From contig NZ_JAUOQT010000002.1 in the NCBI RefSeq assembly GCF_030547245.1, positions 124,001-188,000 on the forward strand: a stretch of 64,000 nucleotides of DNA, given 5' to 3'. Within the stretch, counting starts at the first letter, position 1. The number at the start of each line of letters is the position of its first letter. Source of the DNA: Oceanihabitans sp. 2_MG-2023 (GTDB lineage Bacteria > Bacteroidota > Bacteroidia > Flavobacteriales > Flavobacteriaceae). The translations under genes were made by a program, and so were the position numbers. Shown piece by piece: positions 27,575 through 62,418 of this stretch. Under the pieces are notes generated by a model that did not search any database, was not told the DNA's origin, and worked only from the letters and a program-made list of their open reading frames with translations.

Positions 27575-28801
27575 TTATTCAGAAATTTTAAATCCGATGC
27601 TTTTTAAGTCTTCCCAAAATGTTGGATATGATTTAGAAACCACGAAAGCTTCTTCTATAATTAAAGACGTTTTTAGAGCCAAAGGAGCAAATGCCATTGC
27701 CATTCTATGGTCTTGATAAGTTGCTATTTTAACCTCTTGATTTATAGTGCCAGAAGCTTCTAACTGTAATGTTTTATCTGTAATATGCACCTTTCCTCCT
27801 AGTTTTTCAATTTCGGTTTTTAGCGCTACTAATCGATCTGTTTCTTTTATTTTTAAGGTGTGTAACCCTGAAAGATTACAAGTAATACCTAGTCCGAAAC
27901 ACGTAACCGCAATGGTTTGAGCAATGTCTGGAGCATTTTTAAGATCTAATACAATAGCAGATTTAGGGTTTACATCTGTTTCTTTTTGTAGTTTAACTGT
28001 ATTATTCACAAAAGTTGTTGCTACTCCAAATTGCTTATAAATTTCTGCTAGAGCTGCATCTCCTTGTAATGAATTTTCTTTGTAAGACCCCAATGTGATT
28101 TCTGTACCAACTGCACTCATTGCTGCAATACTATAATAATATGACGCCGAAGACCAATCACTTTCTATAGTTGCTTTTTGATTGTTAATTTGTGCTTTAG
28201 GATGAACCGTTATTACTTGATTTTTAAAACTAGTTTCGACACCTATTTCATTCAGCAAGGCTAAGGTCATATTTATATATGGAATAGATGTAATTTCTCC
28301 ATCTAAAGTAAGCTCTAATCCATTTTCTAGTTTTGGTGCGATTAGTAATAATGCCGAAATATATTGGCTACTAACGTTTGCTTTTAAGATTACTTTATTC
28401 TTTGTGATTTGTTTTCCTTTTATTTTTATTGGAGGATAGCCATCGTTTTTCTCATAACTAATTTCTACTCCTAATTGACGTAGTGCATCTACTAAAATAC
28501 CAATGGGTCTTTCTTGCATTCTAGAAGAACCTGTAAGTATTACTTCTCTGTTATTTTGAATGGAAAAATAGGCAGTTAAAAAACGCATTGCTGTTCCTGC
28601 GTGATGGATATCTATTATGTTTTCTGAGGACGACAATGCCTTTTGCATCACTTTAGAATCGTCGGAATTAGAAACATTTGCTACTTCTAAATTTGCATAT
28701 AATGCTTGTAGCAACAAGAGTCTATTCGATTCGCTTTTAGAACCTGTTACTTGGATAGACGATTTTTTTATGGTGGTGGATTGTTGAAGGTGTAGATTCA
28801 T
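27575..28801 (-). CDS. aroA: 3-phosphoshikimate 1-carboxyvinyltransferase (EPSP synthase)
   Basis: A 408-residue enzyme of the shikimate pathway, joining phosphoenolpyruvate to shikimate-3-phosphate. Recognisable are the substrate-binding GSKSESNRLLLLQALYA, the HAGTAMRFLTAYF loop, SSQYISALLLIAP, SDWSSASYYYSIAA and KETDRLVALKTEIEKLGG. It is about 20 residues shorter than the E. coli enzyme, which is usual in Bacteroidota. It lies apart from the main aromatic operon (31325-35331) and next to the MazG gene, so it is probably not under the attenuator at 35420-35550. Confidence 0.95.
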   Translation of the reverse strand: MNLHLQQSTTIKKSSIQVTGSKSESNRLLLLQALYANLEVANVSNSDDSKVMQKALSSSENIIDIHHAGTAMRFLTAYFSIQNNREVILTGSSRMQERPIGILVDALRQLGVEISYEKNDGYPPIKIKGKQITKNKVILKANVSSQYISALLLIAPKLENGLELTLDGEITSIPYINMTLALLNEIGVETSFKNQVITVHPKAQINNQKATIESDWSSASYYYSIAAMSAVGTEITLGSYKENSLQGDAALAEIYKQFGVATTFVNNTVKLQKETDVNPKSAIVLDLKNAPDIAQTIAVTCFGLGITCNLSGLHTLKIKETDRLVALKTEIEKLGGKVHITDKTLQLEASGTINQEVKIATYQDHRMAMAFAPLALKTSLIIEEAFVVSKSYPTFWEDLKSIGFKISE

Positions 28802-31324: not shown

Positions 31325-32407
31325 TTAAGCTTTTAAAATCTTTTCTTGATGATTAATCGATTCTTGGTGAATTGCTTTAAACATACGTAAAATAAACTCT
31401 TCACTTAATCCTTTAGTTTCTCCTTCTAGAACCATTTTACCTAAAATCTCGTTCCAACGTTTACTTTGTAAAACAGAAACGTTTTTTTGCTTTTTAAGCG
31501 ATCCGATACCATCGGCTACTTTCATTCTTTTTCCTAATAAATCAATAATTTGATTATCTACCACATCAATCTGTGCTCTTAAATTATTAAGTTCCTGATT
31601 GTATGCAGCTTCTGGATCAGATTCTTTTCTAATTCGTAAATCTTCCATTATTTGCACTAATGACTCTGGTGTTACTTGTTGTGCAGCATCACTCCAAGCG
31701 TTATCTGGATCATAATGTGTTTCAATCATTAAGCCATCAAAGTTAAGATCTAATGCAGTTTGCGATACATCAAAAATCATATCTCTTTTTCCTGTAATAT
31801 GCGAAGGATCATTAATTAAAGGAATATCTGGAAACTTATTTTGAAACTCAATAGCTAATTGCCATTCTGGAATGTTTCTATATTTTGTTTTCTCGTAAGT
31901 AGAGAAACCTCTATGTATTGCTCCAAGATTTTTAATTCCTGCAGTGTATAATCTTTCAATGCCACCTAACCATAAAGCTAAATCTGGATTTACAGGATTT
32001 TTAACTAGTACAATTTTATCTGTTCCTTGTAATGCATCTGCAATTTCTTGCATAATAAATGGGCTTACTGTAGATCGTGCACCAATCCATAATAAATCTA
32101 CATCATGCTCTAAAGCTAATTTTACATGCGCAGCGTTTGCAACTTCGGTACAGGTTTTCATTCCTGTTTCTGCTTTTACTTTTTGCAACCATTTTAGACC
32201 TAAAGCACCAACACCTTCAAAGTTTCCTGGTCTTGTTCTTGGTTTCCAAATTCCTGCTCTAAAATAATTTACATCGGTATCTTTCAACTCATGTGCAATT
32301 TTTAAAACTTGCTCCTCTGTTTCTGCACTACATGGCCCTGCTATTACTAGTGGATGATCTAATTTCATGTCATCTAACCATGTTCTTAATTCTTTTTTGT
32401 TTTCCAT
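31325..32407 (-). CDS. Bifunctional DAHP synthase / chorismate mutase
   Basis: A 360-residue fusion. The N-terminal domain (about 10-265) is a type I-beta DAHP synthase/KDO8P-synthase-like barrel (VIAGPCSAETEEQ, KPRTRPGNFEG, LVKNPVNPDLALW, DPSHITGKR). The C-terminal domain (about 275-355) is an AroQ chorismate mutase (LRAQIDVVDNQIIDLLGKRM). It catalyses the entry step of the shikimate pathway and the branch step to prephenate. The start at 32407 (MENKKELRTW) is preferred over an in-frame ATG ten codons upstream, which would add a stretch unlike the family. Last gene of the attenuator-led operon. Confidence 0.95.
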   Translation of the reverse strand: MENKKELRTWLDDMKLDHPLVIAGPCSAETEEQVLKIAHELKDTDVNYFRAGIWKPRTRPGNFEGVGALGLKWLQKVKAETGMKTCTEVANAAHVKLALEHDVDLLWIGARSTVSPFIMQEIADALQGTDKIVLVKNPVNPDLALWLGGIERLYTAGIKNLGAIHRGFSTYEKTKYRNIPEWQLAIEFQNKFPDIPLINDPSHITGKRDMIFDVSQTALDLNFDGLMIETHYDPDNAWSDAAQQVTPESLVQIMEDLRIRKESDPEAAYNQELNNLRAQIDVVDNQIIDLLGKRMKVADGIGSLKKQKNVSVLQSKRWNEILGKMVLEGETKGLSEEFILRMFKAIHQESINHQEKILKA

Positions 32408-32501
32408 AATTTTAAATTTCCAAAAATAAAATTCCAAATTCCAAAAGCATTCCTGCTATTTTCTTTTTTATTGGTATTTAGTTTTTGCTTTTTATTGTTT
32501 G

Positions 32502-33359
32502 CTATTCTATTCCGTTTAATATTTCTTTGATGTAATTGGTATTTTCCATTTCGTTAAAAATGGTTTCAAAATCATCAGCTTTCATGCGTTCTTTAAAATG
32601 GGTAAGATTGCTGATATATTCTTCTAAAGTTTCAATGACGTTTTCTTTATTTTGTTTAAAAATGGGTGTCCACATTGCTGGAGAACTTTTTGCCAATCGT
32701 ACTGTTGAAGCAAATCCACTTCCAGCCATATCAAAAATATCTCTTTCGTTTTTCTCTTTATCAATAACCGTTTTACCTAACATAAATGCGCTTACGTGTG
32801 ATAAATGCGACATATAAGCAATATGTTTATCATGTGCTTCTGGATTCATATAACGAATGCGCATGCCCATAATTTGAAAAATAGCTAAAGCTTTTTCTTG
32901 CAACTTAAAAGCTGTTTTCTCTACTTCGCATATAATGTTTGTTTTTCCTTTAAACAAACCTAATACTGCTGCTTTTGGCCCAGAAAATTCGGTTCCTGCA
33001 ATAGGATGTGTTGCTAAAAAATTTCTTCGTTTTGGGTGATTTTCTACAGCTTTACAAATATCTTTCTTAGTAGATCCAGCATCCATAACCAAGGTATCAT
33101 CGGAAACTAAGTCTAGTATTCCTGGTAAGATCCTTACCGATACATCTACAGGTACTGCAAGTATTACAAAATCGGCATGTGCTATATCTTTTAGGGTTGC
33201 TTTAAAATCAATAACGTTTAATTTTAATGCTTCCTTTAAATGCGATTCTTTAGCATCTATTCCAAATATGCTAATACTAGGGTTAAGGTTCTTTACATCT
33301 TTAGCGATGCTTCCTCCAATTAATCCTACTCCAATTATATATATATTTTTCACACTCAT
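32502..33359 (-). CDS. tyrA: Prephenate dehydrogenase
   Basis: A 285-residue NAD-dependent enzyme converting prephenate to 4-hydroxyphenylpyruvate for tyrosine. The Rossmann motif is IIGVGLIGGSIAKD; HPIAGTEFSGP and HDKHIAYMSHLSHV carry the substrate-binding and catalytic His positions. It has no fused chorismate mutase and no C-terminal ACT domain. The start at 33359 (MSVKNIYIIG) lies 2 bp beyond the aminotransferase stop; the longer frame would add 16 unrelated residues overlapping that gene. Confidence 0.94.
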   Translation of the reverse strand: MSVKNIYIIGVGLIGGSIAKDVKNLNPSISIFGIDAKESHLKEALKLNVIDFKATLKDIAHADFVILAVPVDVSVRILPGILDLVSDDTLVMDAGSTKKDICKAVENHPKRRNFLATHPIAGTEFSGPKAAVLGLFKGKTNIICEVEKTAFKLQEKALAIFQIMGMRIRYMNPEAHDKHIAYMSHLSHVSAFMLGKTVIDKEKNERDIFDMAGSGFASTVRLAKSSPAMWTPIFKQNKENVIETLEEYISNLTHFKERMKADDFETIFNEMENTNYIKEILNGIE

Positions 33360-33361
33360 AA

Positions 33362-34504
33362 TTATATTCTTGCTAATGCTTCTTCTAAATCTTCGGTAGA
33401 AGCACATAGGGAAAACCGAACATAGCCTTCTCCTTGTGTTCCAAAAATGGTTCCTGGAGCAATAAAAATGTGGTTTTCTTTTAATAGAACATCTATAAAT
33501 TCTTCCGATTTAAAATGTGGTGGTAATTTTGCCCAAACAAATAGCCCTGATGCTTCTTTATTATAAGTACAGTTTAATGCATCTGCTAGTTTCCAAACTA
33601 ATTTACGTCTTTGTTTATAGACGCTATTTAAACTCTTATACCACATATTTGAACAGTTTAAAGCTTCAATAGCTCCTTTTTGAATGCCATAAAACATTCC
33701 GGAATCCATATTACTTTTCACTTTTATTATTGCATCTATATGTTTTGCATTTCCTATAACCATTCCTACTCGCCAGCCTGCCATATTAAATGTTTTGCTT
33801 AGTGAATTAAGCTCTAAGCAAACATCTTTTGCTTTTCTAACTGTTAAAATACTAGTTGGTTTATCGTTTAAGATAAAACTGTATGGATTATCATTTACAA
33901 TTAAAATGTGATGCTTTCTGGCAAAGGCAATTACTTCTTCAAATAACTTTTCTGTAGCTTTTGTTCCTGTTGGCATATGTGGATAATTAAGCCACATGAT
34001 TTTCACTTTACTTAAATCTAATTTCTCTAAAGCTTTTAAATCTGGAAGCCAACCTTTACTTTCTTCTAAATTATAAAACACTGGTTTTGCACCAAGCAAT
34101 TTTGTAACCGAAGCATATGTTGGGTAACCAGGATTTGGAATAAGCACCTCGTCACCTTCATTTAAAAAAGCCATAGAAATATGCATGATACCTTCTTTGC
34201 TTCCCATTAATGGTAACACTTCTGTTGTTGGGCTAACATGTACTGCAAATTGTTCGCTATAAAACTGTGTAATTGCTTCTCGTAATTCTGGCAACCCTTG
34301 ATAACTTTGATATTTATGCGCACTTGCATCTTGAAAACTATTTGCGATTGCTGTAATCACTTTTGCTGGTGGCTGTAAATCTGGACTACCAATTCCTAAA
34401 TTAATAATTGGTTTTCCATTCGCTTTAAGCAAATTTACTTCACGTAATTTTCTAGAAAAATAATATTCTTCGACGGTATGTAATCTATCTGCAACCTGTA
34501 TCAT
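33362..34504 (-). CDS. PLP-dependent aminotransferase (aromatic/aspartate type)
   Basis: A 380-residue fold-type I class I/II aminotransferase. NLGIGSPDL, PNPGYPTY, MWLNYPHMPTGT, NDNPYSFI and the Schiff-base lysine region SLSKTFNMAGWRVG are visible. Set between prephenate dehydratase and prephenate dehydrogenase, it most likely transaminates phenylpyruvate and 4-hydroxyphenylpyruvate to Phe and Tyr. Many relatives act on several keto acids (LL-diaminopimelate and aspartate types are related), so the substrate comes from context. Overlaps the pheA stop by one base. Confidence 0.9.
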   Translation of the reverse strand: MIQVADRLHTVEEYYFSRKLREVNLLKANGKPIINLGIGSPDLQPPAKVITAIANSFQDASAHKYQSYQGLPELREAITQFYSEQFAVHVSPTTEVLPLMGSKEGIMHISMAFLNEGDEVLIPNPGYPTYASVTKLLGAKPVFYNLEESKGWLPDLKALEKLDLSKVKIMWLNYPHMPTGTKATEKLFEEVIAFARKHHILIVNDNPYSFILNDKPTSILTVRKAKDVCLELNSLSKTFNMAGWRVGMVIGNAKHIDAIIKVKSNMDSGMFYGIQKGAIEALNCSNMWYKSLNSVYKQRRKLVWKLADALNCTYNKEASGLFVWAKLPPHFKSEEFIDVLLKENHIFIAPGTIFGTQGEGYVRFSLCASTEDLEEALARI

Positions 34505-35331
34505 TATCGTTTTGCATTTTTATATTCGCCTAATATTTTAAAATCTTGCGCCATTATTTCTAGTATCGATTTTGCTTTTTTATAATCTTCATAAGCATTA
34601 AAAGTTACGTCAATAAAAAAGGCATATTTCCAAGGTGTTTCCATTTTTGGCAAGGACTGTATTTTAGTAAGATTCATTTTACAATCACTCATTACATTCA
34701 ATATTGCCGCTAAACTTCCTCTTTTGTGTTCTAATTCAAACTTAAGGGACGTTTTATTTATTTCGCTTTCTGGGAACTCGTGATTCTCGCGCTTTACAAT
34801 TACAAAACGGGTCTCATTATGTTTTATGGTTTGAATACTTTCTGCAAGTATTTCTAATTCAAAAATATCGGCTGCCAAAGCACTTGCAATTGCGCCTATA
34901 TTTTTTAAATTATTTTTTTGAATACGTTGTGCAACCTCAGCGGTATCCTTATCTTCTATGAGTTTAATGTGTGGATGTTTTTTAAAAAACTCCTTACATT
35001 GTAATAAAGCCATAGGATGTGAGTATACTTCTGTAATTTCGGCAATACTTTGATTTGGCAAAGCCATTAAATGATGTTGAATATCTAAATATTTTTCACC
35101 AACAATATGTAAATTATGATTATCAATTAATGCATAGTTTGGAATGATTGATCCTGCAATAGAATTCTCTAAAGCCATGATTACTGCATCTACTTTTTTA
35201 TCTAAGAGATTTTGTACCGTTGCATCAAAAGTTAAACACTCCTGTACTGCAACCTGTTCTCCAAAATATTGTTGAGAAACAATATGATGAAAAGAACCTC
35301 TTACTCCTTGAATTGCTACAGATTTAATCAT
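34504..35331 (-). CDS. pheA: Prephenate dehydratase
   Basis: A 275-residue enzyme making phenylpyruvate from prephenate. The catalytic domain (about 1-185) has GVRGSFHHIVSQQYFG, ALENSIAGSI, YSHPMALLQC and the NETRFVIV box with the catalytic Thr. A C-terminal ACT domain (about 195-270) follows, but the usual Phe-binding motifs GALV and ESRP read GSLA and QSLP, so feedback by Phe may be weak or altered. It is the first structural gene of a four-gene Phe/Tyr operon, 160 bp after an aromatic-rich leader peptide and an attenuator. Confidence 0.95.
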   Translation of the reverse strand: MIKSVAIQGVRGSFHHIVSQQYFGEQVAVQECLTFDATVQNLLDKKVDAVIMALENSIAGSIIPNYALIDNHNLHIVGEKYLDIQHHLMALPNQSIAEITEVYSHPMALLQCKEFFKKHPHIKLIEDKDTAEVAQRIQKNNLKNIGAIASALAADIFELEILAESIQTIKHNETRFVIVKRENHEFPESEINKTSLKFELEHKRGSLAAILNVMSDCKMNLTKIQSLPKMETPWKYAFFIDVTFNAYEDYKKAKSILEIMAQDFKILGEYKNAKR

Positions 35332-35419
35332 ATTTTATTTATTCGTATTTCTTTCTTCTAAAAAAATACCCCTATTTTATTAATGGATATTCCCTCTTTT
35401 TAAAAAAGGTAATACATAA

Positions 35420-35448
35420 AAAAAAGCCTCGATATTTCGAGACTTTTT
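35420..35448 (-). terminator. Attenuator terminator in the pheA leader
   Basis: In the minus-strand RNA, AAAAAGUCUCGA pairs with UCGAGGCUUUUU over a four-base loop: twelve pairs with one U-G wobble, followed by U residues. On the plus strand the same position is a C/A mismatch, so the hairpin is built for the minus transcript. No minus-strand gene ends here: the next gene upstream on that strand is absent (gldA runs the other way), so the hairpin lies inside the pheA leader, 89 bp before the pheA ATG. Confidence 0.88.
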
Positions 35449-35480
35449 GTTTAATTTATATTTAAAAATACATATACAAC

Positions 35481-35486
35481 GTCTCG
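35481..35486 (-). promoter_or_regulatory. Antiterminator arm of the pheA attenuator
   Basis: On the minus strand this reads CGAGAC, an exact complement to GUCUCG in the 5' arm of the terminator (35438-35443). A following UUGU can also pair with ACAA just before that arm. It lies 5 bases after the leader-peptide stop codon, where a ribosome that finishes the peptide would cover it and let the terminator form. A ribosome stalled on aromatic codons would leave it free to pair and open the terminator. Confidence 0.75.
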
Positions 35487-35491
35487 CTTCC

Positions 35492-35548
35492 TTACTTAAA
35501 AAAGAAATAAAACCAGTTATAAAATGTAAAATTTGTTTTCATGCTCAT
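35492..35548 (-). CDS. pheL: Aromatic-rich leader peptide of the pheA operon
   Basis: An 18-codon frame reading MSMKTNFTFYNWFYFFFK then TAA; the second Met (35542) is an alternative start. Nine of 18 residues are aromatic (six Phe, two Tyr, one Trp), with Trp-Phe-Tyr-Phe-Phe-Phe contiguous near the end. It is followed by an antiterminator arm and an intrinsic terminator, then pheA. This is the design of the enterobacterial pheL attenuator, though the sequence is unrelated to E. coli PheL. The name is used by analogy of function. Likely start-site: the promoter's expected transcription start lies only a few bases upstream. Expression has not been shown; the call rests on composition, position and the paired RNA structures. 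Confidence 0.82.
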   Translation of the reverse strand: MSMKTNFTFYNWFYFFFK

Positions 35549-35558
35549 TATTAGGTAG

Positions 35559-35587
35559 CTAAAGTAATTAATTATATGAATAAACAA
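35559..35587 (-). promoter_or_regulatory. Promoter of the pheA leader transcript
   Basis: On the minus strand a TTG (35585-35587) is followed after 18 bp by TACTTTAG (35559-35566), one mismatch from TAnnTTTG. Transcription would begin near 35552, a few bases before the leader-peptide ATG. Confidence 0.55.
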
Positions 35588-43650: not shown

Positions 43651-43762
43651 GTTATCTGTCTTATTACTGAGATTTGAGTAATAAGTAGAATTTAGCACCT
43701 TCTTTTTAATAAAGGGTTGCCAAGGCTTCAATGGGTCTATTCCCTCTGCCTTTCGTGATAAC
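43651..43762 (-). promoter_or_regulatory. SAM-I riboswitch upstream of the methionine synthase genes
   Basis: The minus strand carries the conserved SAM-I features in order. P1 is closed by GTTATC (43757-43762) and GATAAC (43651-43656). The core segments are GAAAGGCAGAGGGA, GAAGCCTTGGCAACC and GGTGCTAAATTC. A P4 hairpin has arms CTTATTAC / GTAATAAG. An AT-rich hairpin (AAGTAAT / ATTACTT) follows directly, without a T run, 55 bp before the homocysteine methyltransferase ATG. When SAM is plentiful the genes for methionine synthase should be repressed; the expression mechanism (terminator or translation) is not clear here. Confidence 0.95.
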
Positions 43763-57210: not shown

Positions 57211-57239
57211 TACTAATTACAGATGAGTAATTAGGTTTA
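57211..57239 (-). terminator. Possible AT-rich terminator between the riboswitch and metY
   Basis: On the minus strand CTAATTAC(tcatct)GTAATTAG forms a perfect 8-bp stem, followed by TATTTTCTTTTT. Right after the aptamer it could be the expression platform of the riboswitch. The stem is weak in G/C, so this is tentative. Confidence 0.4.
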
Positions 57240-57240
57240 A

Positions 57241-57358
57241 GTTATCTATCCAATCTTCAATTAATGAATTGAAAATTAAGTAGAATTTAGCACCTTCTTA
57301 GTAAATCTAAGGGTTGCTAAGGCTTCATCGAGTCTATCTCTCCGCCTTTCTTGATAAC
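57241..57358 (-). promoter_or_regulatory. SAM-I riboswitch upstream of metY
   Basis: The minus strand carries the SAM-I signature. P1 is closed by GTTATC (57353-57358) and GATAAC (57241-57246). Core segments are AAGAAAGGCGGAGAG, GATGAAGCCTTAGCAACC and GGTGCTAAATTC. A long hairpin (P4) has arms CAATTCATTAATTG, and GATAGATAAC completes the aptamer. Its layout matches the aptamer at 43651-43762. It should repress metY and the following genes of homoserine activation and homocysteine synthesis when SAM is high. Confidence 0.95.
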
Positions 57359-57468
57359 ATTTCAGTAAGTGTTTGAACTTTGTGAGCACAAATATTGCAT
57401 TACAAAAGTTTAATATCCAAATTTTTTATGCTTTTTTATTTGTTTTTTTTTTAAAATCACAGAAAAAA

Positions 57469-61720: not shown

Positions 61721-62305
61721 ATGGAAAAATTTACAACATTACAATCTAGAGCAATTCCATTACAAATTGAGAATGTAGATACCGATCAAATTATTCCTGC
61801 TCGTTTTTTAAAAGCTACAGACAAAAAAGGATTTGGTGATAACGTTTTTAGAGATTGGAGATACCATAAAGATGGATCTGTAAATACCGATTTTGCACTT
61901 AATAATGCTAATTACTCTGGGACTATACTTGTTGCTGGAGATAATTTTGGTTGTGGATCTAGTAGAGAACATGCAGCTTGGGCTTTAACTGGATATGGAT
62001 TTAAAGTAGTTGTTTCTAGTTTTTTTGCCGACATATTTAAAGGAAATGCTTTAAATAATGGTTTATTACCTGTTCAAGTTTCTGAAACATTTTTAAAAGA
62101 ATTATTAAGTATATTAGAAAACAATCCAGAAACAGAAATAATTGTAAATTTAGAAAAGCAAACTATTTCGGTTAATGAGACACTATCGGAATCTTTTGAA
62201 ATTGACGCATACAAAAAAACGTGTATGATTAATGGTTATGATGATATTGACTATTTACTTAGCAAAAAATCAGAAATTGAAGCGTATGAAAATGCAACTA
62301 GCTGA
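61721..62305 (+). CDS. leuD: 3-isopropylmalate dehydratase, small subunit
   Basis: A 194-residue swivel-domain subunit partnering leu[33 protein letters not shown] and [11 protein letters not shown] are family marks. The start at 61721 (MEKFTTLQS) lies 1 bp after the leuC stop; an in-frame ATG nine codons earlier would overlap leuC and add an unrelated stretch. The gap to leuB is 205 bp and holds a copy of the dispersed element. Confidence 0.96.
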
Positions 62306-62310
62306 TAATT

Positions 62311-62418
62311 GCGTTAGCGATTGCAGTGACATCCTTTTTACATCTATTCGATAGATACGATTTTAAAGATAGAAAGTGTAAAAAGATATAACGGAAAGCG
62401 CGACATTTAGGTAACGCC
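62311..62418 (+). repeat. Dispersed intergenic element, copy 3 (full length)
   Basis: It starts GCGTTAGCGATTGCAG, has an internal hairpin with arms CTTTTTACA / TGTAAAAAG, then GATATAACGGAAAGCGCGAC, and ends GGTAACGCCC. The outer GCGTTA and TAACGC are complementary, so the whole can fold on itself. Lies between leuD and leuB. Confidence 0.65.

Follow-up and report, generated by a model that had tools for sequence, protein, structure and literature searches.

The enterobacterial pheA attenuator combines a short Phe-rich leader peptide with alternate antiterminator and terminator pairing, and pheA is its first gene. In the enterobacterial trp and his attenuators, the position of the ribosome selects one of two hairpins. 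Some attenuators were reportedly predicted in Bacteroidetes/Chlorobi by Vitreschak et al. in 2004. The authors of a 2010 study knew of leader-peptide systems demonstrated in no groups other than Proteobacteria and Actinobacteria (PMC2965389). Short ORFs reminiscent of attenuation leaders have been described in Bacteroides thetaiotaomicron (PMC7366714). In Flavobacterium psychrophilum, structured pheA and hisG 5′ elements, conserved in other Flavobacteriaceae, were reported in 2021, together with strong indications of attenuation by leader peptides ahead of amino-acid operons (PMC9723704). The first-pass annotation of the sequence studied here had remarked that such attenuation is rarely described in Bacteroidota, a statement which has to be tempered in view of that report.

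We analysed the region upstream of pheA in an Oceanihabitans window (the window is the whole stretch of DNA that was analysed, 64 kb long). Its leader shares with the F. psychrophilum elements the genes, the bacterial family and the lack of an Rfam match, and by this analysis is most probably the same element as the pheA 5′ element of that species; in the portions of the F. psychrophilum account used here, peptide, arms, covariation and range beyond Flavobacteriaceae are not given (PMC9723704). Three-arm covariation, tandem units and a putatively near-leaderless sensor ORF were not seen in the open literature searched and are presented as new, and the apparent range of the device beyond Flavobacteriaceae is also added here. 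The likeness to the enterobacterial pheA attenuator lies in the peptide type, the alternate pairing and the first gene. The window leader differs from it in that its codons also cover Tyr and Trp, in that its operon adds an aminotransferase, tyrA and a DAHP synthase/chorismate mutase, and in its start, which would be near-leaderless. Compared with the enterobacterial trp and his attenuators, the amino acids and the operon differ, and the protector hairpin of the window leader is not firmly demonstrated.

We read the pheA leader as a ribosome-mediated transcription attenuator that would sense all three aromatic amino acids, and give this reading a probability of about 0.93. What we infer from the sequence about leader translation, stalling, and how and within which physiological range read-through changes can be put as follows. 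The RNA would begin near 35554, and a ribosome would load very close to its 5′ end, where the leader ORF begins. Upon shortage of Phe-, Tyr- or Trp-tRNA, this ribosome would stall at the aromatic codons and leave arm A (CGAGAC) just beyond its footprint, where it could pair with the emerging arm B (GUCUCG). The A:B helix would block the B:C terminator, and polymerase would continue into pheA, the aminotransferase gene, tyrA and the DAHP synthase/chorismate mutase gene. When aromatic tRNAs are charged, the ribosome would reach the stop codon and cover arm A, B:C would form and transcription would end near 35418.

The elements of the locus all lie on the minus strand. The promoter (35559..35587) consists of a −33-like TTG (35587-35585) and, after an 18-nt spacer, a −7-like box, TACTTTAG (35566-35559). 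From the position of this sigma-A box, the transcript would start about 6 nt before the first leader ATG, as placed above. The leader peptide ORF, MSMKTNFTFYNWFYFFFK followed by its stop (35492..35548), has 18 codons of which 9 are aromatic; it starts at the ATG at 35548-35546, carries a second in-frame ATG at 35542 and ends at the TAA at 35494-35492. Some of the ORFs in this study, that of the window included, are listed from an upstream TTG or GTG start. Arm A, the 5′ arm of the antiterminator (35481..35486), lies 5 nt past the leader stop and 11 nt past the last Phe codon. Arm B (AAAAAGUCUCGA, 35437..35448) is both the 3′ arm of the antiterminator and the 5′ arm of the terminator, and its core, GUCUCG, occupies 35443-35438. 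The 3′ half of the intrinsic terminator (35418..35432) is made up of arm C (UCGAGGCUUUUU, 35432-35421) together with the last part of the U-run. The terminator, AAAAAGUCUCGA / AAUA / UCGAGGCUUUUU (35448-35421), has 12 bp, folds with −13.2 kcal/mol, is followed by a U-run of 8 nt ending at 35418 and sits between the leader ORF and pheA, the ATG of which is 160 nt from the leader stop. The promoter, the 18-codon frame with its nine aromatic codons, the CGAGAC after the stop and the 12-pair terminator had all been pointed out in the first-pass annotation, and each was located at the place given there. Its orientation of the terminator was also upheld: a U-G pair in the minus-strand RNA corresponds to a C/A mismatch on the plus strand, which assigns the structure to the minus strand. 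In the interval between attenuator and pheA, at 35391-35365 on the minus strand, inspection by eye shows another hairpin, AATATCC...GGGGTATT, which is weak and precedes a T-run.

The first structural gene, pheA (prephenate dehydratase, 34504..35331; Pfam PF00800, E 3.6e-54), overlaps a class I/II aminotransferase gene (33362..34504; PF00155, E 6.7e-65). These two are followed by tyrA (prephenate dehydrogenase, 32502..33407; PF02153 and PF20463) and by a DAHP synthase-chorismate mutase fusion (31325..32437; PF00793 and PF01817), all on the minus strand. A co-directional run comes after the fusion gene, with rsgA, dtd, a ydjM-like gene, a mazG-like gene and, last, aroA (EPSP synthase, 27575..28801, minus strand; PF00275, E 7.2e-80); this run may belong to the same transcript as pheA. 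DAHP synthase and EPSP synthase supply all three aromatic amino acids, and a leader reading Phe, Tyr and often Trp fits since both enzymes serve all three.

The full pattern was searched with a detector requiring an ATG ORF with at least six aromatics in 12 codons, a terminator, and an arm A located 5-14 nt downstream of the last aromatic codon. On both strands of the 64-kb window it gave exactly one match, the pheA leader. When the 350 nt preceding pheA were dinucleotide-shuffled, 0/3000 sequences contained the full pattern, and 0/3000 an ATG ORF with at least eight aromatics in 12 codons. A terminator score of at least 30 was reached in 1/3000 shuffles; the window terminator scores 31.7.

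Relatives of pheA were collected by a scan of genome contigs, which matched 190 loci, and the best 80 of 190 were used. The nearest, in Lacinutrix and other Flavobacteriaceae, show 89-93% identity. After L007 (150 nt), L008 (128 nt) and L048 (37 nt) had been dropped for their short upstream DNA, 77 relatives remained. An aromatic leader lies less than 450 nt from pheA in 76/77 of these (out of the best 80 of 190), and in the 77th, L018, it is found at −539, which brings the total to 77/77. In L018, three similar hairpin-bearing repeat copies (such as CCCGCTGAAAGGCGGG) separate the attenuator from pheA. The leader peptides vary while the aromatic run is kept, e.g. MTSNFAYYNWFYFFFSKRNETLYV, MSNNRFYFSNTFYFFSER and MTLQNVWQGFYFYFYFFNKS. 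In many relatives the leader ORF runs through arm A and has its stop downstream of it; the stop precedes arm A in the window and in the relatives nearest to it. In 42 non-overlapping close pairs of leaders, 50 of the 135 codon changes were synonymous, compared with 14% expected for random single changes, and aromatic-for-aromatic exchanges made up 32 of the 85 amino-acid replacements. This pairwise test shows a coding signature in the leader ORF, apparently one that selects aromatic codons.

The set used for the counts that follow comprises 110 loci. L018 (leader more than 450 nt away), L102-L104, L117 and L125 were left out, loci with two leader units were counted with one unit each, and the spurious extra ORFs of L011, L015 and L016 as well as ORFs without a terminator were dropped. 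Phe and Tyr codons are present in 110/110 of these leaders and Trp codons in 64/110, so that the sensor is better named all-aromatic. This refines the first-pass annotation, which had named Phe/Tyr starvation as the stalling signal.

The three arms change together among loci. The A/B pairs include CGAGAC/GTCTCG (Oceanihabitans window), GAGGC/GCCTC and GCCGGGACT/AGTCCCGGC, AGGATT/AATCCT and GGGATT/AATCCC in Flavobacterium loci, and GGAACT/AGTTCC in Kordia (L078), and each distinct A/B set has its matching C arm. A:B and B:C share arm B and are mutually exclusive; both covary. In a sequence-only MAFFT alignment of 46 of 62 non-redundant reference loci, the rows of which are related and hence not independent, 95.7% of cells in the A:B helix were paired, compared with at most 41.3% in slid registers, and 97.8% in the B:C helix, compared with at most 57.6%. 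Doubly changed cells numbered 24 for A:B, versus 5.0 in shuffles, and 25 for B:C, versus 3.5, with 0/500 shuffles as high in either case. The number of further pair types was not unusual (317/500 shuffles as high for A:B, 60/500 for B:C), and the outermost A:B pair was unpaired in 10/46 alignment rows. Arms A scored a mean of 18.0 with their own B arm (n = 110), as opposed to 11.3 when combined with dissimilar B arms taken from other loci, and the own A:B score beat at least 95% of swapped pairs in 92/110 loci, a comparison to be taken as descriptive because 100/110 B arms fall in one linked cluster. In 18/110 loci the own score was not above 95% of swaps; nine of these have GAGGC in arm A, paired via G-U, and truly weak A arms are also among them (e.g. 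L077, L114 and L126).

The first-pass annotation had pointed to an alignment of pheA upstream regions, and this alignment gave conserved aromatic codons and compensatory changes in both stems. Among the 77 near relatives, compared over pheA and its upstream region, the leader is always present and both helices covary, and the refuting test named in that annotation, relatives with the operon that have lost the peptide or the alternate pairing, did not go against the reading. What is conserved at these loci are the arms of the cis switch and the aromatic content. The predicted products are a short RNA of defined length and a short peptide, and the terminated leader RNA (~137 nt) or the peptide might also act in trans, adding to the cis switch. 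A precedent is the trp leader peptide of Sinorhizobium, peTrpL, which has been described as acting in trans (PMC7298713). With conservation following the cis switch and no pointer to a trans target in these data, we consider such an additional role unlikely here.

For the leader as a ribosome-mediated attenuator, spacing was compared over the 110 loci. Arm A follows the last aromatic codon at a median distance of 11 nt, and the gap falls outside 5-14 nt in 4/110 loci (L077, L118, L121 and L126). Relative to the last base of the stop codon, arm A starts between −25 and +7 nt in 103/110 loci; in the other 7/110 it starts 29-34 nt before this point, and a ribosome that has reached the stop codon might leave it exposed once more on the upstream side. 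When nascent RNA was folded up to arm B, A:B was part of the minimum-energy fold in 108/110 loci (median −14.7 kcal/mol, other stems included); for the isolated terminator the median over 110 loci is −12.5 kcal/mol. In the window, the A:B core has 6 bp and is weaker than the 12-bp terminator. As the whole-leader minimum-energy fold contains the terminator, the attenuator switch would have to be kinetic.

A footprint model was applied, which assumes a ribosome edge 12 nt beyond the first A-site base and treats RNA upstream of the ribosome as unavailable. In this model, a ribosome positioned on the last aromatic codon makes A:B probable in 106/110 loci; one codon further on the figure is 67/110, two codons further on 4/110, and on the stop codon 0/110. 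With the modelled spacing, arm A would thus become free upon stalling and be masked once the ribosome reaches the stop codon. At the window locus, the order of freeing is the same whether the footprint edge is set to 9, 12 or 15 nt. The first-pass annotation had regarded the last three Phe codons as borderline: all three leave arm A free with an edge of 9 or 12 nt, and the description holds for the last one at 15 nt, where freeing is partial (0.59). With an edge of 9 nt, the stop masks arm A only partly (0.59). Between leader codons and arm A, the folds only suggest a protector (1:2) hairpin, with P >0.5 in 89/110 loci and a mild excess stability over shuffles (median z −1.67; window z −1.07).

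Promoters were searched as TANNTT(T/A)G with a TTG 17-20 nt upstream, at most 60 nt from the leader ATG. Such a promoter-like box was found in 74/110 loci; shuffled upstream regions gave 0.6 on average and at most 3. The commonest case, 20/74, is a box ending 10 nt before the ATG. The sigma-A consensus TAnnTTTG occupies −12 to −5 (PMC9723704), and from box position 33/74 boxed leaders would have at most 8 nt of RNA ahead of their ATG.

The range of the device was followed in a phylum sample of 296 genomes, 258 of which had a match. Upstream DNA was taken for 60 loci, which are not an even sample since they were mostly picked down the similarity ranking. Further loci of the same family (L091-L101) had leader, terminator and A arm in 11/11 cases. 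In an outer set of 27 loci (L102-L128; 23 of the same class, 4 of the same phylum), the device was found in 24, of which 22 by the detector and two, L117 and L125, by eye; A arms are weak in L109, L114 and L126. The three outer loci L102-L104 have no leader device at pheA, and in L102 and L104 pheA comes, by eye, directly after another open frame. A scan for aromatic ORFs in 22 more distant loci of the same phylum (L129-L150) gave no convincing leader. Tandem leader-plus-terminator units occur upstream of pheA in L109, L113 and L123 (partly seen by eye), and also at L164 (ilvD) and L183 (trpE).

Leaders of other amino-acid operons were sought at 12 of 14 hisG matches, 15 of 26 PF04715 (trpE-family) matches and 12 of 12 ilvD matches. 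By counts that stand without shuffle control, a His-rich leader with terminator is present in 12/12 hisG loci scanned (L151-L162), a Trp-rich leader with terminator in 7/15 trpE-family loci by ATG scan, and an Ile/Leu/Val-rich leader with terminator in 7/12 ilvD loci. The hisG leaders contain HHH or HHHH in 11 cases and HHTHH in L154; that of the same genome as the window (L156) is MNFIQLHHHHFTTGNQAS, with a terminator. Six of the seven trpE-family leaders contain WWW and the other, L181, WW. Four more trpE-family loci lack an ATG start but have a terminator and WWW codons; among them is that of the window's own genome (L180), whose leader would have to begin at a non-ATG codon such as TTG. 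The remaining four, L186-L189, are weak family matches. No leader was found by the ilvD upstream scan in 5/12 loci, the own genome's L173 among them, where ilvD may not be the first gene of its operon. A-arm search scores were 12 to 20.7 for the 12 his leaders and 9 to 12.7, which is weak, for six trp leaders; the trp cases are thus based on Trp codons and terminator.

Membership in the Rfam family RF01859 (Phe_leader) was considered for the pheA leader and rejected: the minus strand scores 30.8 bits (E 0.0024, 401-base search) against a gathering score of 55, and the match is not specific since the opposite strand scores higher (32.2 bits). Elsewhere in the window, SAM riboswitches (RF00162) lie at 43652-43761 and 57239-57360 on the minus strand, and a Flavo-1 RNA (RF01705), a motif of unknown function, at 62296-62409 on the plus strand.

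Switches that operate independently of translation likewise possess a terminator and a covarying alternative helix. If a riboswitch, a T-box or a protein-dependent attenuator used the terminator, the ORF would be incidental. Yet this ORF carries the signature of aromatic-codon selection, its last aromatic codon is kept at a near-fixed distance from arm A, and parallel His- and Trp-rich leaders stand ahead of hisG and trpE. Rfam gave no family at gathering score at 35420-35587, nor in 10 related loci (eight pheA, one hisG and one ilvD). We therefore hold a translation-independent switch to be very improbable. We give still less credit to the view that the terminator acts as a simple insulator and the ORF aids pheA translation by reinitiation or an antenna effect. 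That role has been proposed by Korolev et al. where a leader gene lies in the immediate vicinity of the structural gene, with a Bacteroidetes peak at 11-14 bp (PMC4833913); here the distance is 160 nt, and the A:B helix would be left unexplained. The reading as a ribosome-mediated attenuator, already put forward in the first-pass annotation, is strongly supported by leaders in 77 relatives, by the covarying helices and by the spacing in the footprint model.

Translation initiation in Bacteroidota proceeds largely without Shine-Dalgarno signals, and transcription-translation coupling in these bacteria is a debated question. The absence of Shine-Dalgarno sequences is remarked on in the F. psychrophilum study (PMC9723704). 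On strong comparative evidence, the present results would extend a textbook proteobacterial control to Bacteroidota. We lean, by a small margin, towards a wider view, in which ribosome-mediated attenuation would be a standard and anciently shared control of Phe/Tyr/Trp, His, Trp and Ile/Leu/Val operons in much of Bacteroidota, working without Shine-Dalgarno sequences, often near-leaderless and sometimes in tandem. The element would also make the regulation of aromatic amino-acid synthesis predictable from sequence alone in many species. Because attenuation needs a ribosome close behind the polymerase, the pheA leader could serve as a natural reporter of transcription-translation coupling; if the wider view is true, close coupling between ribosome and polymerase would be required in these Bacteroidota.
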